DNA from: Sandaracinus amylolyticus
Lineage (GTDB): Bacteria; Myxococcota_A; Polyangia; Polyangiales; Sandaracinaceae
Assembly: GCF_000737325.1 (NCBI RefSeq)
Contig: NZ_CP011125.1
Span: 8,618,001 to 8,682,000 of the forward strand
DNA: 64,000 bases
Reading direction: 5' to 3'
Below are positions 13,097 through 46,788 of this stretch, in pieces (position 1 is the stretch's first letter; each line of letters opens with the position of its first letter). The notes under the pieces were generated by a model that saw only the letters and a list, made by a program, of their open reading frames with translations, made no database searches and was not told the origin of the DNA. The position numbers were made by a program, and so were the translations under genes.

Positions 13097-14143
13097 ATGC
13101 TCGCCGCTTTCGCGAGCGTGGAGCGTGCGATGGCGAGGATGGGCGTGTGGAGCGTCGGGACCGTGGCGATCACGGGTGACGAGGGTGAGAACGGCACGGC
13201 CGTGCTCGTGGTGGACGAGGACGAAGGCGGGCTCGTCGCGAACGATCTCTGGGCGTCGATGGGCGAAGGCGACGCCGTCGCGACGTCGCTGAAGCAGCTG
13301 TTCGGCGAGGTGGGCCGGCCGCGCAAGCTCGTCGTGAAGACGGGCCCGCTCGCGAAGGCGGTGCGCGCGGCGGGCGTGCGCGAGGAGATCACGGTCGGCG
13401 CGACGCCGAAGCTCGATGCGCTGATGGAAGAGCTCGAGAAGGACGCGGCAGCGCTCGCGAGCATGCCCGGTCCGCTCGACGCCGAGGACACGACGAGCGC
13501 GCACCTCAACACGTTCTTCGCGGCGGCGCAGGTGATGCGGCACGTCGCGCCGTGGGGGTTCTTCCCGCCCGCGACGTCGTTCTCGGTGGAGGCGCCTTCG
13601 CTCGGAATTTCCGAGGGCGGCGCGTTCGTGCTGAGCTCGGAGGACGACGATGACGAGCTCGAGGGCGAAGAGGCCGTCGGGATCGAGAACGACGATCTCA
13701 CGCCCGGCGAGGCGCCCGGTGGGTGGATGTTCGTGGAGTCGCCCGAGGACTTCGCGGCGCTGAGCGAGGCGATGATCGACGGGAGCGCGCCGCGCGACAA
13801 GGCGAGCGTGATCGCCCTCGCCTACGAGCGCGCCGAAGATCTCGGGCCCGCGTTCGAGGCGTTCGCGCGCGAGCACGAGCTCGACGTGCCGGCGGACGGA
13901 TGGATCCCCGTGCTCTCGCGCTCGAAGCGCGGCGTCGGGACGGTCGCGGTGAGCGCGAGCGATTACGAGCTCGCGACCGCGATCTGCACGGCGATCGCGA
14001 ACATCACGGTCGCGCTCGCGGAGGACGACGAGGAAGAGGTCGACGGAGTGCGCGCCGAGCTCGTGACCGCGAGCGGGATGCAGGTCTTCGTCGAGGGCCC
14101 GATGGCGGACGACGACGAAGAGGACGAGAGCGAGAGCGAGTGA
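13097..14143 (+). CDS. Acidic protein of unknown function
   Basis: I do not recognise this 348-residue protein. It is strongly acidic, with runs such as SSEDDDDELEGEE near the middle and a Glu/Asp-rich C-terminus, and has no signal peptide or membrane segment. The N-terminal part looks like an alpha/beta domain (VGTVAITGDEGENGTAVLVV), and the C-terminal part repeats a similar pattern (SKRGVGTVAVSASDYELATA). Only 21 bp separate its first ATG from the divergent start at 13075, so the true start could be 13130 or 13139. Codon use is as in its neighbours. Convergent with the next minus gene, 3 bp apart. Confidence 0.7.
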   Translation: MLAAFASVERAMARMGVWSVGTVAITGDEGENGTAVLVVDEDEGGLVANDLWASMGEGDAVATSLKQLFGEVGRPRKLVVKTGPLAKAVRAAGVREEITVGATPKLDALMEELEKDAAALASMPGPLDAEDTTSAHLNTFFAAAQVMRHVAPWGFFPPATSFSVEAPSLGISEGGAFVLSSEDDDDELEGEEAVGIENDDLTPGEAPGGWMFVESPEDFAALSEAMIDGSAPRDKASVIALAYERAEDLGPAFEAFAREHELDVPADGWIPVLSRSKRGVGTVAVSASDYELATAICTAIANITVALAEDDEEEVDGVRAELVTASGMQVFVEGPMADDDEEDESESE

Positions 14144-14146
14144 CGC

Positions 14147-14842
14147 TCAGGAGAGCACGGCGGGATCGTCGCTGGCGCGCACCGGGCCGAGCGCGCTCGG
14201 CTCGATGACGAGACGCTTCTTCCGCGCGGTCTCGCGATACCCGGCGCCGCCCTGTGCGGCGCCCGGGTGAGGATCGTCCTCCCAGCGCGCGAGACCGAGG
14301 ATCGCGACGGTCTCGCCGGGCTCGAGCGCGCCCTCCTGGTAGCGAACTCCCTTGTTGAAGCCGAAGAAGTCGGTGCTCGAGTGGCCGTGGCGCGCGAGGT
14401 ACGCGTCGAGCTCGGGCGTCGCGTCGTTCCACGTGCCCGAGCGCTGGTGGTGATCGAGCACGATCGCGGGCTCGAGCTGGAGCGCCTTCACGATCGCGCG
14501 ACCGGTCTCGTCCTCGACGACGAAATCGACGCTCTCGCGGTCGCGGATCAACGAGCGCCAGCTCGAGCTCTTGCCGGTCGAGACGCGCACGTCGACCTCG
14601 ACGCGGTACGCCGCGCAGGTGCGGTGCGAGAGCGGCGCGTCGAGGGTGCGCGGACCGGCGCGCAGCGTGCCGACGATGCGCACCAGCTGCCCGTCCGGCG
14701 CATCGGCGACGCGCACCAATGGCGCGGCGCGGATCGCGCGGAGCGTCTGCTGGTACGGCGAGAACCACCACGCGCCGAGCGCGATCGCGCCGGCGGCGCC
14801 GAGCGCGATCAGGAGGAACAGCGGGGACGCGACGAGCAGCAT
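14147..14842 (-). CDS. GIDE/MULAN-like membrane protein
   Basis: The 231-residue product starts with one hydrophobic segment (about 4-27), followed by a soluble domain. The pattern PLSHRTCAAYRVEVDVRV ... VDFVVEDETGRAIV ... FGFNKGVRYQEGALEPGETVAILG resembles the bacterial relatives of the GIDE (MULAN E3 ligase) BAM domain, where a Cys-rich PLSxxxCxxYR motif precedes a DxTG strand. The function in bacteria is not known. It follows pmbA by 13 bp on the same strand and is probably the third gene of the tldD-pmbA operon, which hints at a role in peptide or membrane-protein turnover. Confidence 0.65.
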   Translation of the reverse strand: MLLVASPLFLLIALGAAGAIALGAWWFSPYQQTLRAIRAAPLVRVADAPDGQLVRIVGTLRAGPRTLDAPLSHRTCAAYRVEVDVRVSTGKSSSWRSLIRDRESVDFVVEDETGRAIVKALQLEPAIVLDHHQRSGTWNDATPELDAYLARHGHSSTDFFGFNKGVRYQEGALEPGETVAILGLARWEDDPHPGAAQGGAGYRETARKKRLVIEPSALGPVRASDDPAVLS

Positions 14843-36960: not shown

Positions 36961-39654
36961 ATGTCGTGGTCGTGTCGTGCTCGCGCCGCGAGCATGGTCG
37001 TCTCGTGCTTGCTCGCGGTCCTCGCGAGCGGCTGCACCTGCGGTGTGCCGATCGCGCCGCTCGAGGACGTGTACATCCCGTCGCTCGACGCCGGCGCGGA
37101 CGCGCAGCTCGAGCGCCCCGACGGATCGACGTGCAGCGCGGAGACCGGCGAGGGCTGTCCCTGCGCGGCCGAGGGCGAGACGCGATCGTGCTCGACCGGC
37201 GGCGTCGGCGCGTGCGGCATGGGCACCCAGACGTGCGTCGTCACGTTCGAATTCCCGGTGTGGGGCGCGTGCGGCGACGTCGCCGAGCCGAGCGACGAGA
37301 CGTGCAACGGCGTCGACGACGACTGCGACGGCACGCTCGACGAGGCGCTCGGCGAGCTCACGTGCGGCGAGGGCGCGTGCCGCACCACGGTGCCCGCGTG
37401 CGCGTCGGGCGTCGCGCAGGAATGCACGCCGCTCGCGGCGTTCGGCGAGGCGTGCAACGGCGCCGACGACGACTGCGACGGCGCGATCGACGAAGCGCTC
37501 GGCAGCTCGATCTGCGGGACCGGCGCGTGCGAGCGCGAGGTGGCGGCGTGCGCGGAAGGCGTCGTCGGCGTGTGCACGCCGGGCGCGCCGGCCGTCGAGT
37601 CGTGTGACGACGACGACGACGACTGCGACGGCATGATCGACGAAGGGCTCGGCACGATCGCGTGCGGCCGCGGCACGTGCGCGCGCACCGTCGCGGCGTG
37701 CGCCGACGGAACGCCGGGCGTGTGCATCCCCGGGACCGCCGGCAGCGAGACCTGCGACGGCGCCGACGACGACTGCGACGGGACGATCGACGAGGGCTTC
37801 GGCACCACGGTGTGCGGCGTCGGCGAGTGTCGCCGCGTCGTGCTCGCGTGCTCGGGCAGCGGTGGAGGCACGTGCACGCCGGGCACGCCGACCGCCGAGA
37901 TCTGCAACGGCCTCGACGACGACTGCGACGGCACCGTCGACGACGGGATCGCGCCCGTGCGCTGCGGCGTCGGCGCGTGCGCGCGCATGCAGGCGGGCTG
38001 CGTCGGCGGCGTCCCCGCGACGTGCACGCCCGGCATGCCGAGCGCCGAGGCGTGCAACGGCGTCGACGACGACTGCGACGGCACGGTCGACGACGGCTTG
38101 CCCGAGCTCACTTGCGGCCTGGGCGCGTGCCGCCGCACCGCGACCGCGTGCACGAGCGGCAACCCCGGCACCTGCACGCCGGGCACGCCGGGCACCGAGG
38201 TCTGCGGCAACGGCGTCGACGACGACTGCGACGGCGCGGCCGACGAGCTCTGCGCGTGTGATCCCGCGGTCGATCGCGACTTCGACGGATCGAACGAGTG
38301 CCTCGACTGCGACGACGCGAACGGCGCGGTGCGCCCCGGTCGCGCCGAGCTCTGCAACGGCACCGACGACGACTGCGATCGACGCATCGACGAGGCGTTC
38401 GACGCCGATCGCGACACGTTCGGCACCTGCTCGAGCGATCCCACCCAGCGCGACTGCGACGACACGCGCGCGAGCGTGTACCCCGGCGCGCCCGAGCTCT
38501 GCGGCGCCGACGGGCGCGGCGACGGGATCGATCAGGACTGCGACGGATACCTCGACGAGCTGTGCAATCCGTGTGACCCGCGCGACGACGACGGCGACGG
38601 TCTGAGCGAGTGCGCGGGCGACTGCGACGACACGACCCCGAACGTCTCGCCGCGCGTCGCCGAGCGCTGCGACGGATCCGACACCGACTGCAATCGCTTC
38701 ACCGTCGACAATTGCGGCGTGAGCGAGCCGTGCAACTTCTCGAGCGGCGCCGACGTCTGCGGCGACGATCTGCTCTGCGGATGCGTCGTGGGCGGCGGCG
38801 GGATGTGCACCGGCAACTACGTCTGCACGTCGTTCTGCGAGGGCAGCTACACCGGCGCGCTCGGCGCGGGCTGCACCGCGACGCAGACGTGCCGCTATCG
38901 CGTGACGATCACCGACAACCTGCACGGCTGCGCGGAGAGCACCGATCCGATCGGCACGCTGATGGGCGGCGCGGTGTGCAGCGGAGACGCGCAGTGCCGC
39001 AGCGGCGACTGCGATCGCTACTGCATCGGGCCGGGGTGCAACACGCAGCGCTGCGTCGACTACTGCACGCACCACGCGCCCGGGACGTCGGGCAGCTGCG
39101 CGAGCGGCACGGTCTGCGAGATCGTGTCGGTCGCGGGGACCTCGCCGCTGATGTACGCGCGCTGCGCGCTCGACGACAACGGCACCGGCACCACCGGCGC
39201 GGCGTGCGGTCGCGCGGGTCAGCCCGGGTGCATGTGGGGCGCGCAGAGCTGCGTCAGCGGCGTGTGCGCGCAGCCGTGCGCGGTCAACGCGCAGTGCCCG
39301 AGCGGCACGCACTGCTCGGTCCGCGGCAACGCGACGACGATCGGCACGTTCGGCAGCGACGCGCCCGCGGCGATCCGCGGGATGACCGCGGTCGAGACGG
39401 TGCCGGTCTGTCTCGCGAACACCGGCGCGGGCCTGCACAACCGCCAAGCAGGCGCGGCGTGCGCACAGAACGGCGACTGCGAGAGCCAGCTGTGCGAGCG
39501 CTCGCTCGGCGTGTGCATCGACCTCTGCACGAGCGACGACTCGTGCCCGACCGGCCTCGGATGCGAGCTCGCGTACCTGCGCACGCCGACCGGCGTCGTG
39601 TCGTCGCGCGTGTGCCTGTCGGCGAGCTACGACGGGCTCTTGAGCGCGCTCTGA
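36961..39654 (+). CDS. Large secreted MopE-type repeat lipoprotein
   Basis: The 897-residue product has lipobox LASGC with Cys25 (a shorter start, Met12, is equally plausible). About ten CNGxDDDCDGxxDE motifs lie between residues 118 and 580; the first seven are regularly spaced by ~50 residues with CGxGxCxRxxxAC and CTPGxP between. The rest (about 600-897) is Cys-rich with CSGDAQCRSGDC-like modules as in the lipoprotein at 28170. It shares the metal-binding motif with the protein at 30757 but not its spacer sequences or PPC domains. It starts 52 bp after the kinase stop on the same strand and could be co-transcribed. Confidence 0.8.
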   Translation: MSWSCRARAASMVVSCLLAVLASGCTCGVPIAPLEDVYIPSLDAGADAQLERPDGSTCSAETGEGCPCAAEGETRSCSTGGVGACGMGTQTCVVTFEFPVWGACGDVAEPSDETCNGVDDDCDGTLDEALGELTCGEGACRTTVPACASGVAQECTPLAAFGEACNGADDDCDGAIDEALGSSICGTGACEREVAACAEGVVGVCTPGAPAVESCDDDDDDCDGMIDEGLGTIACGRGTCARTVAACADGTPGVCIPGTAGSETCDGADDDCDGTIDEGFGTTVCGVGECRRVVLACSGSGGGTCTPGTPTAEICNGLDDDCDGTVDDGIAPVRCGVGACARMQAGCVGGVPATCTPGMPSAEACNGVDDDCDGTVDDGLPELTCGLGACRRTATACTSGNPGTCTPGTPGTEVCGNGVDDDCDGAADELCACDPAVDRDFDGSNECLDCDDANGAVRPGRAELCNGTDDDCDRRIDEAFDADRDTFGTCSSDPTQRDCDDTRASVYPGAPELCGADGRGDGIDQDCDGYLDELCNPCDPRDDDGDGLSECAGDCDDTTPNVSPRVAERCDGSDTDCNRFTVDNCGVSEPCNFSSGADVCGDDLLCGCVVGGGGMCTGNYVCTSFCEGSYTGALGAGCTATQTCRYRVTITDNLHGCAESTDPIGTLMGGAVCSGDAQCRSGDCDRYCIGPGCNTQRCVDYCTHHAPGTSGSCASGTVCEIVSVAGTSPLMYARCALDDNGTGTTGAACGRAGQPGCMWGAQSCVSGVCAQPCAVNAQCPSGTHCSVRGNATTIGTFGSDAPAAIRGMTAVETVPVCLANTGAGLHNRQAGAACAQNGDCESQLCERSLGVCIDLCTSDDSCPTGLGCELAYLRTPTGVVSSRVCLSASYDGLLSAL

Positions 39655-41339: not shown

Positions 41340-41478
41340 GATCGTCCTCCTCGTGTGTGCGGCTGCGTCGCGCCGCGAATGCGTCGCGCCCCTTCGAGCA
41401 CGGTGCGCGCCACGACGCAGCGCGTAGAGATCGCGCCGCAGCGCGTCAGCGGTGTTGCCGGTTAGTATCGGGCTCCCC

Positions 41479-42390
41479 ATGCCCGAGCTCCCCGACATCA
41501 CGCTCTACATCGAAGCGCTGGAAGCGCGCGTGATCGGACGCACGCTCGCGTCGATCCGGCTCGCGTCGCCCTTCGTGCTGCGCTCGGTGGATCCGAAGAT
41601 CGCGGACGTGGTGGGGCACGAGGTGATCGGGCTGCGAAGGATGGGCAAGCGCATCGTCTTCGCGATCGAGCCCGACGTGTTCGCGGTCGTGCACCTGATG
41701 ATCGCCGGACGCTTCCAGTGGAAGGACGAAGCGAAGGCGAAGATCCCCGGCAAGGTGGGCCTGCTCGCGTTCGACTTCGTCAGCGAAGACGGCGCGGAGC
41801 ACGGGACGCTGCTGCTCACCGAGGCCTCGACGAAGAAGCGCGCGAGCCTGCACCTCGTGCGCGGCGAGGCCGCGCTGCGCGACTTCGATCGCGGCGGGCT
41901 CGAGCCGCTCGGCTCGACGCTCGAGCAGTTCAAGGACGCGCTCACCCGCGAGCGCCACACGCTCAAGCGCGCGCTGACCGATCCGCGCCTGTTCTCGGGC
42001 ATCGGCAACGCGTACTCCGACGAGATCCTCCACCGCGCGAAGATGTCGCCGGTCACGCGCAGCGATCGCCTCGACGACGCGGCGATCGCGACGCTGCATC
42101 GCGCGACGATCGAGGTGCTCGAGGAGTGGATCGATCGCATGCGCGCCGAGCTCGCCGGCGGCTTCCCTGCGAAGGTCACTGCGTTCCGGCCCGAGATGGC
42201 GGTGCACGGCAAGTACGGACAGCCGTGCCCGGTGTGCGGGACGAAGGTGCAGCGCATCGTGTACGCGGAGAACGAGTCGAACTACTGTCCGCGCTGCCAG
42301 ACCGAAGGGAAGCTGCTCGCGGATCGATCGCTCTCGCGGCTGCTGAAGGGCAACTGGCCCAAGACGATCGAGGAGCTCGAAGGTCGTTGA
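41479..42390 (+). CDS. Fpg/Nei-family DNA glycosylase
   Basis: The 303-residue product has the base-excision glycosylase/AP-lyase layout. Pro2, the Schiff-base nucleophile, and Glu3 open the protein (MPELPDITLY; position 6 is Asp, not the usual Glu). The helix-two-turn-helix region reads FSGIGNAYSDEIL (about 173-185), and the C-terminal zinc finger is CPVCGTKVQRI with CPRCQTEGK. The family excises oxidised bases such as 8-oxoguanine or oxidised pyrimidines. The sequence does not decide between Fpg and Nei, so no symbol is given. TAGTAT lies 10 nt before the ATG. Confidence 0.85.
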   Translation: MPELPDITLYIEALEARVIGRTLASIRLASPFVLRSVDPKIADVVGHEVIGLRRMGKRIVFAIEPDVFAVVHLMIAGRFQWKDEAKAKIPGKVGLLAFDFVSEDGAEHGTLLLTEASTKKRASLHLVRGEAALRDFDRGGLEPLGSTLEQFKDALTRERHTLKRALTDPRLFSGIGNAYSDEILHRAKMSPVTRSDRLDDAAIATLHRATIEVLEEWIDRMRAELAGGFPAKVTAFRPEMAVHGKYGQPCPVCGTKVQRIVYAENESNYCPRCQTEGKLLADRSLSRLLKGNWPKTIEELEGR

Positions 42391-42425: not shown

Positions 42426-42932
42426 ATGTGCCGCTCTGTTGCACGTGGGAGCACCGCGCTGGTCGTGATCGCGATGATCTCGCTCTCGTGCCGAGAGCCG
42501 GATCCCGACGACGGGCCCTTCCCCACCGACTACGAGCGTGCGTGGACCGAGGCGCGCGACGGCTGCACGCTCAGCCACGATCACGAGCTGCGCTACATCC
42601 GCGTGTTCGCGAACGACGGCGCGCTCGGGCCCTACACGCAGCAGGACGCGCCCTACCCCGTCGGCGCCGCGCTGCTGAAGGCGGAGTACGACGACCCCGA
42701 GTGCACCGAGCTGCTCTCGTTCGTGCTGATGGAGAAGCTCGAGGCGGGCACCACGCCCACCGAGGAGCACGACTGGACGTGGCGCCGCTTCGACGCGCAG
42801 CGCCGCGAGGTCTTCGATCGTCGCGCGATCCCGACGACGTGCATCGACTGCCACGCTTGGCATTGCGAGGAGCCCCCGTATGGCTGGGACTACACGTGCC
42901 CTCCCGGTTCGATCGAGCCGACTCCGCGCTGA
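42426..42932 (+). CDS. Lipoprotein with CxxCH heme motif (cytochrome P460-like)
   Basis: The 168-residue product has lipobox ISLSC with Cys22. The domain contains YIRVFANDGALGPY, LSFVLMEKLEAG and a final CIDCHAWHC, in which C139, C142 and H143 form a CxxCH c-type heme site. This matches the P460-like family, small periplasmic c-type cytochromes, although the cross-linking Lys of true P460 is not evident. Further Cys (CPPG) follow. It is the first gene of a tight plus-strand lipoprotein cluster; the next start lies inside it. An inverted repeat (ctggca/tgccag, 42395-42413) precedes the start. Confidence 0.65.
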   Translation: MCRSVARGSTALVVIAMISLSCREPDPDDGPFPTDYERAWTEARDGCTLSHDHELRYIRVFANDGALGPYTQQDAPYPVGAALLKAEYDDPECTELLSFVLMEKLEAGTTPTEEHDWTWRRFDAQRREVFDRRAIPTTCIDCHAWHCEEPPYGWDYTCPPGSIEPTPR

Positions 42933-43908
42933 GATCGCGCTCGTCGCGCTGATCACGATCGGGTGCCCGGGGCCGAGCGAAGAGCCCGTGCACCGCGTCG
43001 TGATGGAGGAGCTGCCCGCGGGCTTGCTCTCGGTGTGGGGGACGAGCGCGCGCGACGTGTGGACGGTCGGCGCCGATCCCGGCGACGGTCCGTACGTGCT
43101 GCGCTACGACGGCGACGGGTGGACGCGCATCCCGACCGGCGCGCAGGGCGACGCGTGGTGGGTGCACGGCTTCGAGAGCGATGGCTCGGTGCTCGTCGGC
43201 GGCGAGGGCGGGATGATCCTGCGCTGGGACGGGACGTCGTTCGCGCGCATGGAGACGCCGAGCGATGCGCCGACGATCTTCGGCATCTGGGGCAGCGCGC
43301 CGGACGACGTGCTCGCGGTCGGCGGGCTCGGCCGCGTGGCGGGGTTCGTGTGGCACTACGACGGGAGCGAGTGGCGCGCGATCGAGCTGCCCGAGGCGCT
43401 CGAGGGGCGATCGCTCTTCAAGGTGTGGGGGCGCGGGCGCGGCGATGCGTGGATCGTCGGCACCGACGGAGCCGTGCTGCACTGGGACGGCGAGGAGCTC
43501 GCGATGCACGACGCGGGCACCACGCGGACGCTCTTCACGGTGCACGTCGGGCCCGACGGCAGCGTCGCGGCGGTGGGTGGCGCGGGCTCGGGCGTGCTGG
43601 TCGTGCGCGATCCCGAGGGTGCTTGGCACGACGTGGCACCCGACCTGGTGCCCCATCTGTTCGGTGTGTTCCTCACGCGCGACAGCGGTCGTGCCGTGGG
43701 GATCAACGGGACGTTCGTGCGGCGCGAGAGCGCGACGTGGGTCGTCGAGGACACCGGGCTCGCGCTGGCAGAGACTCTGCATTCCGTGTGGATCGATCCC
43801 GACGGCGGCGTGTGGGCCGCGGGCGGACAGGTGCTCGCAGAGCCGCTGGAGCGCGGTCTCTTGATCTATCAGGGGCGCGAGGAGATCGCGTCGTACGAGG
43901 GGGAGTGA
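42880..43908 (+). CDS. Beta-propeller surface lipoprotein
   Basis: The 342-residue product has lipobox ITIGC with Cys29. The mature part consists of repeated strands around VWGTSARDVWTVGA, GIWGSAPDDVLAVGG, VWGRGRGDAWIVGTDGAVLHWDG and SVWIDPDGGVWAAGG, a seven-bladed propeller pattern of the 'galactose-oxidase/photosystem-II assembly-like' kind frequent in myxobacteria. The ATG at 42880 overlaps the P460-like gene by 53 bp; the only other start upstream of the signal peptide is not better. Its TGA overlaps the next ATG. Likely binding or assembly function at the outer membrane; no enzymatic residues are evident. Confidence 0.75.
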   Translation: MAGTTRALPVRSSRLRAEIALVALITIGCPGPSEEPVHRVVMEELPAGLLSVWGTSARDVWTVGADPGDGPYVLRYDGDGWTRIPTGAQGDAWWVHGFESDGSVLVGGEGGMILRWDGTSFARMETPSDAPTIFGIWGSAPDDVLAVGGLGRVAGFVWHYDGSEWRAIELPEALEGRSLFKVWGRGRGDAWIVGTDGAVLHWDGEELAMHDAGTTRTLFTVHVGPDGSVAAVGGAGSGVLVVRDPEGAWHDVAPDLVPHLFGVFLTRDSGRAVGINGTFVRRESATWVVEDTGLALAETLHSVWIDPDGGVWAAGGQVLAEPLERGLLIYQGREEIASYEGE

Positions 43909-45098
43909 TGGGAGCGAGGCTGCGAACGCTGGGCGTGCTCGCGGGCGGTGTGATCACCGCGGCGGGGCTCGGCGCGTGCGAGGAGAGCGGATGCCCGGAC
44001 GAGCGCGGCGTCGCGTGCGTCTACGCGGGCACCGGTGAGCAGGCGCTCGGCGAGGACGGATTGCCGCCGCGCGAGACCGCGATCTACTGGTCGATCGATC
44101 TCGAGTTCGCGCCCGACGGCACCGCGTACTTCCTCGACTGGAACAACCACCTCGTGCGGCGCGTGCGCGCCGACGGAACGGTCGAGACGGTGATCGGCGA
44201 CTTCATCGGCGACGGGCCGCGGCTCGATCCGGAGCGCGAGTTCGACGGCACCGGCGTGCCCGGTCGCGAGGTCTCGCTGAACCACCCGACCGATCTGCAG
44301 TTCGACGATCGGGGCCGGCTCTACCTGATGGCCTGGCACAACCACAAGCTGCGCACGTGGGATCCGACGACCGGGCTCGTCGAGGTCGTGTGCGGCAGCG
44401 CGCCGGGCTATCGCGGCGACGGGTCGAGCGACCCCGCGGCGGCGCGCTTCAACCAGCCCAAGGCGCTGGTGCGCGCGAGCGACGGCACGTTCTACGTGCT
44501 CGATCAGCGCAACTTCTTGGTGCGACGCATCACGCCCGACGGGGCGATCGAGACCGTCGCGGGCACGCCCCCGATGCCGGGCACGATGCCGATGCCGGGC
44601 TTCGAGGGTGACGGCGGTCCCGCGACGAGCGCGCGCCTGCGCTTCGAGGCGGGCGGCAATCCCGAGCCGAGCGGTGGGCTCGCGCTCGACGAGGACACGA
44701 ACGTCCTCTACATCGCCGACGGTCTGAACTTCCGCATCCGCGCGGTCGATCTCGCGACCGGTGTGATCGACACCGTGCTCGGAACCGGCGAGATGGGCTA
44801 CGACGGAGACGGAGGCCCCGCGGCGAGCGCGCGCATCTCGCACGTGCGCGATCTCGAGATCGGCCCCGATGGTCGGCTCTACTTCGCCGACACCGAGAAC
44901 CACGTGGTGCGCGCGTGGGATCGCGACGCCGACGTCGTGACCACGATCGTCGGCACCGGCGAGCGCGGCACCGGCGCGGAGGGCGCGGACGCGACGGCGA
45001 CGCAGCTCGCGCGGCCGATGGGCATCGCGTTCGGGCCCGATGGCGCGCTCTACGTCGCCGACACCGAGAACAGCCGCTTCCTGAGGGTGCCCCTGTGA
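43908..45098 (+). CDS. NHL-repeat lipoprotein 1
   Basis: The 396-residue product has lipobox LGAC with Cys24. The mature protein is an NHL-type six-bladed propeller: AYFLDWNNHLVRRV, LYLMAWHNHKLRTW, FYVLDQRNFLVRRI, LYIADGLNFRIRAV, LYFADTENHVVRAW and LYVADTENSRFLRV mark six blades. The loops between them read GYRGDG and YDGDGGPA, common in this group. It overlaps the upstream gene (TGATG) and is a paralogue of the next. NHL propellers bind peptides, carbohydrate or RNA; no substrate is inferred. Confidence 0.82.
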   Translation: MGARLRTLGVLAGGVITAAGLGACEESGCPDERGVACVYAGTGEQALGEDGLPPRETAIYWSIDLEFAPDGTAYFLDWNNHLVRRVRADGTVETVIGDFIGDGPRLDPEREFDGTGVPGREVSLNHPTDLQFDDRGRLYLMAWHNHKLRTWDPTTGLVEVVCGSAPGYRGDGSSDPAAARFNQPKALVRASDGTFYVLDQRNFLVRRITPDGAIETVAGTPPMPGTMPMPGFEGDGGPATSARLRFEAGGNPEPSGGLALDEDTNVLYIADGLNFRIRAVDLATGVIDTVLGTGEMGYDGDGGPAASARISHVRDLEIGPDGRLYFADTENHVVRAWDRDADVVTTIVGTGERGTGAEGADATATQLARPMGIAFGPDGALYVADTENSRFLRVPL

Positions 45099-45100
45099 CG

Positions 45101-46351
45101 ATGAGCAAGACGAAGAAGGTCGCGGCGTGCGCGCTGCTCGCGATGACCGCGTGCGAGCCCGAGACGCCGGCTGCGTGCGAGCCCGCGCCGGGCACGATCT
45201 GCACGATCGTCGGCACCGGGCGCGCGGGGCTCGCGGGCGACGACGGGCTCGCGCGCGAGGCCGAGCTCTACCTGCCGATGGACTCGACGATCGGTCCGAA
45301 CGGCGACCTCTACGTGGTCGACTGGAACAACCACCGGATCCGCGTGGTGAGCGACCCGCTCGAGACGAGCGTGATCGAGACGTGTGCGGGCAGCGGTCGT
45401 CTCGGCGACGGACCGCCGGGCCCGGTGCTCGAGGCGGACTTCAATCATCCGACCGACATCGTGTTCGACGGGTCGGGCCACATGTGGATCGCGGCCTGGC
45501 ACAACAGCCGAGTGCGCATGGTCGACCTCGAGACGGACACGCTGAGCGACGTCGCGGGCACCGGCGGGCGCAACTACTTCGGCGACGGCGGGCCGGCGTC
45601 GAGCGCGGTGCTCGACCTTCCCGCGGGCCTCGACTTCGATGCGGCGGGGAACCTCTACTTCGTCGATCAGGCGAACCAGGTGATCCGCCGGATCACGACG
45701 ACGGGCACGATCGAGCGCGTCGCGGGCATGTGCGTGACCAACGAGTGCGCGGACGGCGAGACGCCGGTCGCGTGCCCGGGGGGCAGCGGCCGCACGCACT
45801 GCGGCGCCGACGTGAGCGCTTGCGATCTGCCGTGCGCGCGCGCGTACGGGGGCGACGGTGGGCCCGCGCTCGAGGCGCGCTTCGCGATGCCGTTCGGGCA
45901 GTCGGCGGAGCCCTCGGGCCGCATCGCGATCGCCGGCGACGGCACGATCTACTTCGCGGACAGCCACAACCATCGGGTGCGCGTGATCTCGCCCGACGGG
46001 ATGATCGACACGCTCGCGGGCACGGGCACGCGGGGCTACGCGGGCGATGGGGGCCCGGCGAGCGCGGCGCAGCTCGACAACCCGGTCGACGTCGAGCTCT
46101 CGGAGGACGAGCGCACGCTCTACCTGACCGACACGTTCAACCACTGCGTGCGCGCGATCGATCTCGACGCGGGCACGATCGACGGCGTCGCGGGCCGCTG
46201 CGGGACGCGCGGGTTCGAGGGCGACGGCGGCGATCCGCGCGAGGCGCTGCTCGATCGCCCGTACGGGATCGAGATCGATCACGCGACGGGGAACCTCTAC
46301 GTCACCGACACGCACAACCACCGGGTGCGCGTGATCGTCCCCGCGACGTGA
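45101..46351 (+). CDS. NHL-repeat lipoprotein 2
   Basis: The 416-residue product has lipobox MTAC with Cys18. Its propeller blades are marked by LYVVDWNNHRIRVV, MWIAAWHNSRVRMV, LYFVDQANQVIRRI, IYFADSHNHRVRVI, LYLTDTFNHCVRAI and LYVTDTHNHRVRVI. It differs from its paralogue in a Cys-containing insertion (CVTNECADGETPVACPG) between blades. GTG at 45095, overlapping the previous stop and better spaced from GAGGG, is an alternative start. Last gene of the lipoprotein operon; a 9-bp hairpin (46396-46404 with 46408-46416) follows. Confidence 0.82.
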   Translation: MSKTKKVAACALLAMTACEPETPAACEPAPGTICTIVGTGRAGLAGDDGLAREAELYLPMDSTIGPNGDLYVVDWNNHRIRVVSDPLETSVIETCAGSGRLGDGPPGPVLEADFNHPTDIVFDGSGHMWIAAWHNSRVRMVDLETDTLSDVAGTGGRNYFGDGGPASSAVLDLPAGLDFDAAGNLYFVDQANQVIRRITTTGTIERVAGMCVTNECADGETPVACPGGSGRTHCGADVSACDLPCARAYGGDGGPALEARFAMPFGQSAEPSGRIAIAGDGTIYFADSHNHRVRVISPDGMIDTLAGTGTRGYAGDGGPASAAQLDNPVDVELSEDERTLYLTDTFNHCVRAIDLDAGTIDGVAGRCGTRGFEGDGGDPREALLDRPYGIEIDHATGNLYVTDTHNHRVRVIVPAT

Positions 46352-46428: not shown

Positions 46429-46788
46429 ATGGCGGGGAGCGCGAGCGTGCACTGGGACGGCGACGTGATCCGAGTGCACTACCGTGGATACATCGACGGC
46501 GCGGCGATGCAGCAGGCCACCGACGGCGTGAAGCGCTGTCTGATGCAGCGCCGTGCGAGCGCCGTGCTCTTCGACACGCTCGAGGTCGAGGGATACTCGG
46601 CCGAGGTGCGTGCGCCGGGCATCGAGATGTTCCGCGCGCTCAAGGACCACGCGCTGGCGCGCGCGGTCGCGATCTCCACGTCGTCGGCGGTGCGGATGAT
46701 GGGCTCGGTGTTCGCGTTCGCGACCGGGATGCCGCTCGAGTTCGTCGAGTCGCGCGCCGAGGGCGAGCGACGCGTCGCGCTGCGGTGA
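46429..46788 (+). CDS. STAS/SpoIIAA-like protein
   Basis: The 119-residue product has no signal peptide. The pattern (VIRVHYRGYIDGAAMQQATDGV, ASAVLFDTLEVEGYSAEVRAPGIEM, ALARAVAISTSSAVRMMGSVFAFATG) resembles the SpoIIAA-like (STAS-type) single-domain proteins that are common hypothetical genes in myxobacteria. A regulatory or scaffolding function is likely by fold, but no partner kinase is nearby. It starts 78 bp after the lipoprotein operon, behind a 9-bp hairpin, so it may be a separate transcript. Convergent with the next gene. Confidence 0.7.
   Translation: MAGSASVHWDGDVIRVHYRGYIDGAAMQQATDGVKRCLMQRRASAVLFDTLEVEGYSAEVRAPGIEMFRALKDHALARAVAISTSSAVRMMGSVFAFATGMPLEFVESRAEGERRVALR

Follow-up and report, generated by a model that had tools for sequence, protein, structure and literature searches.

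What a small P460-type cytochrome might do beside three β-propeller lipoproteins is the question raised by a gene cluster of Sandaracinus amylolyticus. The window, the whole stretch of 64,000 nucleotides that was analysed (G000:C1:8618001-8682000), belongs to a genome that consists of one contig of 10,327,335 bases. Four genes make up the cluster:

42426-42932, + strand: P460-family cytochrome lipoprotein, 168 aa, with anchor Cys22, Lys85, Val100 and the heme motif CIDCH at residues 139-143
42880-43908, + strand: PROP, a seven-bladed β-propeller lipoprotein, 342 aa, with anchor Cys29
43908-45098, + strand: NHL1, an NHL-repeat propeller lipoprotein, 396 aa, with six NHL-type motifs (counted by eye)
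45101-46351, + strand: NHL2, an NHL-repeat propeller lipoprotein, 416 aa, with six NHL-type motifs (counted by eye)

The P460 and PROP genes overlap by 53 bp, PROP and NHL1 share the overlap TGATG, and 2 bp separate NHL1 from NHL2. Direct reading of these same-strand genes thus agrees with the original prediction of four lipoprotein genes that overlap or lie a few bases apart, and all four proteins pass the lipoprotein pattern PS51257. The anchor Cys29 is invariant across the PROP alignments, and the anchor cysteine of the P460 protein is invariant or nearly so in its own. Relative to a sister species (G181), dN/dS amounts to 0.26 for P460, 0.24 for PROP, 0.21 for NHL1 and 0.26 for NHL2, values which indicate that all four genes are under purifying selection; the figure for the adjacent Fpg gene is 0.05. 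This gene (41473-42390) and the SpoIIAA-like gene on the other flank (46429-46788) were considered as members of the unit and rejected, as their adjacency to the cluster is kept only in the sister species. Promoter and terminator scans of the locus, poorly informative in a GC-rich myxobacterium, detected neither element. Elsewhere in the window (36961-39654, + strand) an ORF codes for an 897-aa lipoprotein-like product with many CNGVDDDCDGTxDE repeats, resembling putative metal-binding motif proteins.

The first gene had been described as a P460-like lipoprotein with a CIDCH motif, and this assignment holds: the protein scores 27.9 bits against PF16694 (cut-off 27) in the Pfam scan, and 26 of 26 members of its group match this family at E ≤ 0.01. 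Chance does not account for the CxxCH close to the C terminus, as this motif is present in all 26 relatives and in 20 of 20 sequences of a second, overlapping alignment. The AF2 model (pLDDT 83.8) superimposes best on cytochrome c'-β (TtCP, Z 13.7), followed by McP460 (11.7) and NeP460 (9.0); Z ranges from 13.7 to 8.9 for all listed P460 and c'-β members, and the next unrelated structure reaches 4.2. The single P460 sequence also gave a weak PDB match to maritimacin, which was judged to be due to chance. Additional conserved cysteines at positions 47, 93 and 158, and in most sequences at 147, suggest disulfides, as would fit an exported protein. The same genome encodes the cytochrome c assembly family PF01578, and the cytochrome would be loaded with a single heme. 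In the Sandaracinaceae the P460 gene is duplicated, and the window copy groups with the upstream copies, in a clade specific to this family (support 100/100). A second, canonical P460 lipoprotein of this genome (G000:C1:9324250-9324669; L040:7995-8426) groups with the downstream cluster copy of another genome (G175); it lies ≈ 663 kb from the window cluster and has no PROP or NHL gene within ≈ 8 kb.

In profile alignments to 6hiu and to the 6hih group, Lys85 pairs with the cross-link residue Lys78 of McP460 and with Phe61 of McCP-β, and residue 100 pairs with Asp102 of McP460 and Gly82 of McCP-β, in both cases consistent with the published Table 2 (PMC11928373). Among 46 aligned rows, drawn from two overlapping alignments and hence representing fewer distinct proteins, the lysine is invariant (46/46), and position 100 holds Thr, Val or Ser in every row, Val in the window protein, and an acidic residue in none. 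A glutamate two residues past the lysine on the same strand, Glu87, is found in 38 of the 46 rows and could substitute for the missing distal acid. Cytochrome P460 has a distal capping residue, Phe or Arg; the loop that carries Phe32 of McCP-β appears in the profile alignment as an insertion relative to the P460 subfamily. The distal carboxylate, Glu96 in NeP460 and Asp102 in McP460, is required for hydroxylamine oxidation, and its placement tolerates little change; NsP460, which has the lysine without the carboxylate, does not oxidise hydroxylamine (PMC11928373). More generally, P460-fold proteins devoid of the carboxylate do not oxidise NH2OH, several of them bind NO, and the hemes of P460 are regarded as centres that bind ligands and have a very low potential (PMC11928373). 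With the lysine kept and the carboxylate absent in the alignment, the cluster protein is a 'halfway house' P460, a lysine-heme cross-link through Lys85 is predicted from sequence, and oxidation of hydroxylamine is not expected in the absence of the proton-relay carboxylate. According to a 2025 review (PMC11928373), it has yet to be settled what P460-fold cytochromes with the lysine but without a polar catalytic pocket do.

The propeller assignments of the original prediction were likewise confirmed. PROP matches no Pfam family above cut-off; its AF2 model (pLDDT 92.6) is a seven-bladed propeller, with Z ≈ 32 to propellers of this type such as streptogramin B lyase and WD40 proteins. At identities of 8-18% this match concerns the fold only and indicates no function. 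A weak PDB match of the PROP profile to a laccase was judged to be due to chance. The other two propellers, paralogues with 39% identity, score above the cut-offs of TEN_NHL and NHL, the latter being 20 bits (NHL1: TEN_NHL 75.3 bits, NHL 60.7 bits; NHL2: TEN_NHL 82.3 bits, NHL 73.4 bits), and the best solved relatives of NHL2 are teneurin-like proteins, SOQ1 and NHLRC2. Invariant Asp, Asn and His residues in the first blade motifs of the NHL proteins (DWNNH, AWHN) hint at a putative ligand or metal site. In six genomes of one family (f3), PROP and NHL1 form a single ORF, in which the PROP part scores 338-347 bits and the NHL1 part 495-569 bits; such a fusion very probably reflects a joint function or physical association of the two proteins. 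A second context of PROP occurs in other Myxococcota, where it heads proteins of ≈ 950 aa (L071:9995-12844, L080, L081, L082, L084, L087, L089, L090, L092). In the six that were scanned, the C-terminal part gave a DUF6851 match and a weak match to the VCPO helical bundle, and that of the L071 protein matches solved vanadium-dependent haloperoxidases (E 4e-18), so that these proteins may be fusions of a propeller with a haloperoxidase-like domain.

The cluster is by no means confined to the window. A search with P460 found relatives in 26 of 183 genomes of the order, and their neighbourhoods contain PROP, NHL1 and NHL2 together with P460, mostly in that order with P460 last. With a phylum-wide sample included, at least 33 genomes have P460 next to NHL1/NHL2, and they span 11 family-level groups (f1, f3, f4, f11, f15, f16, f26, f38, f48, f53 and f54, PROP not being seen on some of the contigs), so that the conserved co-occurrence and synteny on which the original prediction depended are present in relatives. 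When GTDB genomes were scanned with the PROP alignment, 35 loci were obtained; without exception their labels are Myxococcota, MAGs that are delta-/proteobacterial or unassigned, or strains of myxobacteria, and complete clusters are present in Enhygromyxa salina SWB005 and SWB007, Paraliomyxa miuraensis and others. A scan of genome contigs with the single P460 sequence found no relatives. Of 29 places with a P460 hit of at least 139 bits, 21 have NHL1/NHL2 or PROP next to it, and four of the remaining eight are at contig ends; for the more distant, lower-scoring hits the count is only 3 of 41 (Fisher p = 1.3e-8, with the relatedness of the genomes uncorrected and the 139-bit cut placed after the scores were known). 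The association with propellers is thus the property of one P460 subfamily, a few members of which stand alone. A conserved unit is therefore well supported.

The composition of the unit is nevertheless variable. A third NHL gene (NHL3) frequently adjoins P460 in relatives, PROP-P460 pairs occur without NHL genes (L156-L158), and several families have the PROP-NHL1-NHL2 trio with no P460 beside it (L079, L222, L223, L226-L229), in one case with PROP and NHL1 fused (L224). Hence the propellers constitute the core, and P460 with its heme is a frequent but optional member. In clusters of the Nannocystaceae type, a small lipoprotein-like gene with a C-terminal LHVHNHG-N-WE motif adjoins P460 or NHL3 and may be one more component of the unit there:

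L072:6101-6865: LHVHNHG-N-WE lipoprotein-like gene
L077:13741-14484: LHVHNHG-N-WE lipoprotein-like gene
L069:15231-15896: LHVHNHG-N-WE lipoprotein-like gene
L074:15081-15866: LHVHNHG-N-WE lipoprotein-like gene
L066, near 14080-14573: LHVHNHG-N-WE lipoprotein-like gene

At another locus, a very long NHL ORF of ≈ 1,560 codons (L180:2-4678; 640 bits to the NHL3 model) precedes, by ≈ 1.4 kb, a P460 gene that belongs to a more distant subfamily.

It can be rationalized that the four genes are inherited together, are probably co-expressed and encode membrane-anchored lipoproteins. The core would be formed by the three β-propellers, PROP and NHL1 as one physical unit joined by NHL2 and sometimes by a third NHL protein, and this core would hold the small c-type heme protein of P460 fold. 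The heme, attached via CxxCH and by the predicted lysine cross-link, would most likely bind NO or another small ligand at its open site, and it could either scavenge this ligand or serve the propeller assembly as a sensing or redox centre. We favour, tentatively and with slightly less than even confidence, such a membrane-anchored propeller assembly docking a single cross-linked heme that is able to bind an NO-like ligand. Against it count the trio without P460 in several families and the few solitary P460s of the same subfamily, and further the Glu87 that could substitute for the missing acid and the denitrification genes, which do not follow the cluster. The more specific version, a complex in which the cross-linked heme senses or captures an NO-like molecule and relays the effect to two six-bladed propellers and one seven-bladed propeller, appears rather unlikely; if true, it would give 'halfway house' P460s a biological role.

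The main rival draws likewise on the trio without P460 and on the solitary P460s, as well as on the canonical P460 encoded far from the cluster in this genome: the functional core would consist of the propellers, as lipoproteins for ligand binding, adhesion or scaffolding, and P460, encoded next to them, would serve a purpose of its own. The adjacency of the subfamily to propellers in 21 of 29 places and across 11 families, retained despite changed gene order, suggests selection for a link between P460 and the propellers, and we consider a separate role unlikely, if somewhat less so than the relay just described. Catalysis, that is, oxidation of hydroxylamine or another N-oxide by the cross-linked heme for detoxification, with another acid such as Glu87 in place of the usual one, would account for the invariant lysine and for the glutamate that is frequent two positions further along this strand. 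It is rendered improbable by the lack of an acidic residue at the required position in all 46 rows, by the inactivity of NsP460, which shows the same pattern, and by the strict placement of the acid (PMC11928373).

The original prediction had gone further and proposed a functional unit for extracellular electron transfer or heme handling, with electrons or heme passed across the envelope by the cytochrome and the propellers as scaffold. The unit itself stands, as a conserved multi-gene set of a c-type heme protein and three propellers. The proposed role is not supported, even though a c-type cytochrome and surface-type lipoproteins do meet in one cluster: there is one protein with one heme, from a ligand-binding family of very low potential (PMC11928373), and the trio exists without any cytochrome. 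Six-frame ORFs, counted in this way because a simple gene caller misses several P460 genes, contain none with three or more CxxCH motifs in 571 kb around 31 cluster loci, a result that speaks against electron transfer to the cell exterior, and no other redox gene is conserved in the vicinity of the clusters; this role is accordingly regarded as very improbable. A part in denitrification is not supported either, as NirK and NosZ do not follow the cluster: NirK is above cut-off in 5 of 21 cluster genomes against 20 of 162 others (p = 0.17), and NosZ is depleted (1 of 21 against 42 of 162, p = 0.03). Least credible of all is an enzyme like hydrazine synthase. The parts are alike, with six- and seven-bladed propellers and a c-type heme site (PMC12758564), but the Pfam scan of the four proteins revealed no hydrazine synthase domain at E ≤ 1, one heme would have to stand for four, and no second heme protein is conserved nearby.

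As anticipated in the original prediction, no system of this composition emerged: a unit of P460 and propeller or NHL proteins in myxobacteria or Deltaproteobacteria is not described in the literature searched, which excluded most subscription papers. None of the parts falls outside known folds and families; apparently undescribed are the way in which they are combined, the conservation of this combination and the subtype of P460. The cluster thereby supplies a conserved gene context to NHL lipoproteins otherwise without an assigned function, and P460s of the 'halfway house' type, judged as such by sequence, here have conserved partner genes across a whole phylum. As carriers such as S. amylolyticus, E. 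salina and P. miuraensis are in culture, the role of these P460s is experimentally tractable.

Among known systems, cytochrome P460 (PF16694; NeP460, McP460, NsP460) shares with the cluster protein the fold, the CxxCH near the C terminus and the lysine at the cross-link position; the cluster protein, by contrast, is a lipoprotein, has additional conserved cysteines, lacks the distal carboxylate and is encoded next to propellers. Its pocket pattern is nearest to that of NsP460, which is inactive on NH2OH. Cytochrome c'-β (McCP, TtCP, NeCP) has the fold and the missing distal carboxylate in common with it and provides the best structural match, but carries Phe or Met at the position of the invariant lysine. 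NHL1 and NHL2 share repeat family and motif number with NHL and teneurin-NHL propellers and differ in that they are free-standing lipoproteins whose genes form a conserved set with those of PROP and P460. The PVC-type heme-binding CxxCH protein (TIGR02604) was rejected as a relative at 32.2 and 24.9 bits against a cut-off of 122.2. ScyE and ScyF of the scytonemin cluster are likewise cluster-encoded NHL propellers of distant similarity (82 bits to ScyF), but the NF035926 scores of 43.8 and 82.3 bits are far under the 350-bit cut-off and the gene partners differ. Porin-cytochrome electron conduits place a c-type cytochrome in the outer envelope, as the cluster may, with multiheme cytochromes that the present clusters lack. 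In hydrazine synthase, six- and seven-bladed propellers surround c-type heme sites for NO/NH2OH chemistry; homology was not detected, and that enzyme carries four hemes in heme domains of a different kind (PMC12758564, PMC12607021), in contrast to the single P460-type heme that would be held by the propellers described here.
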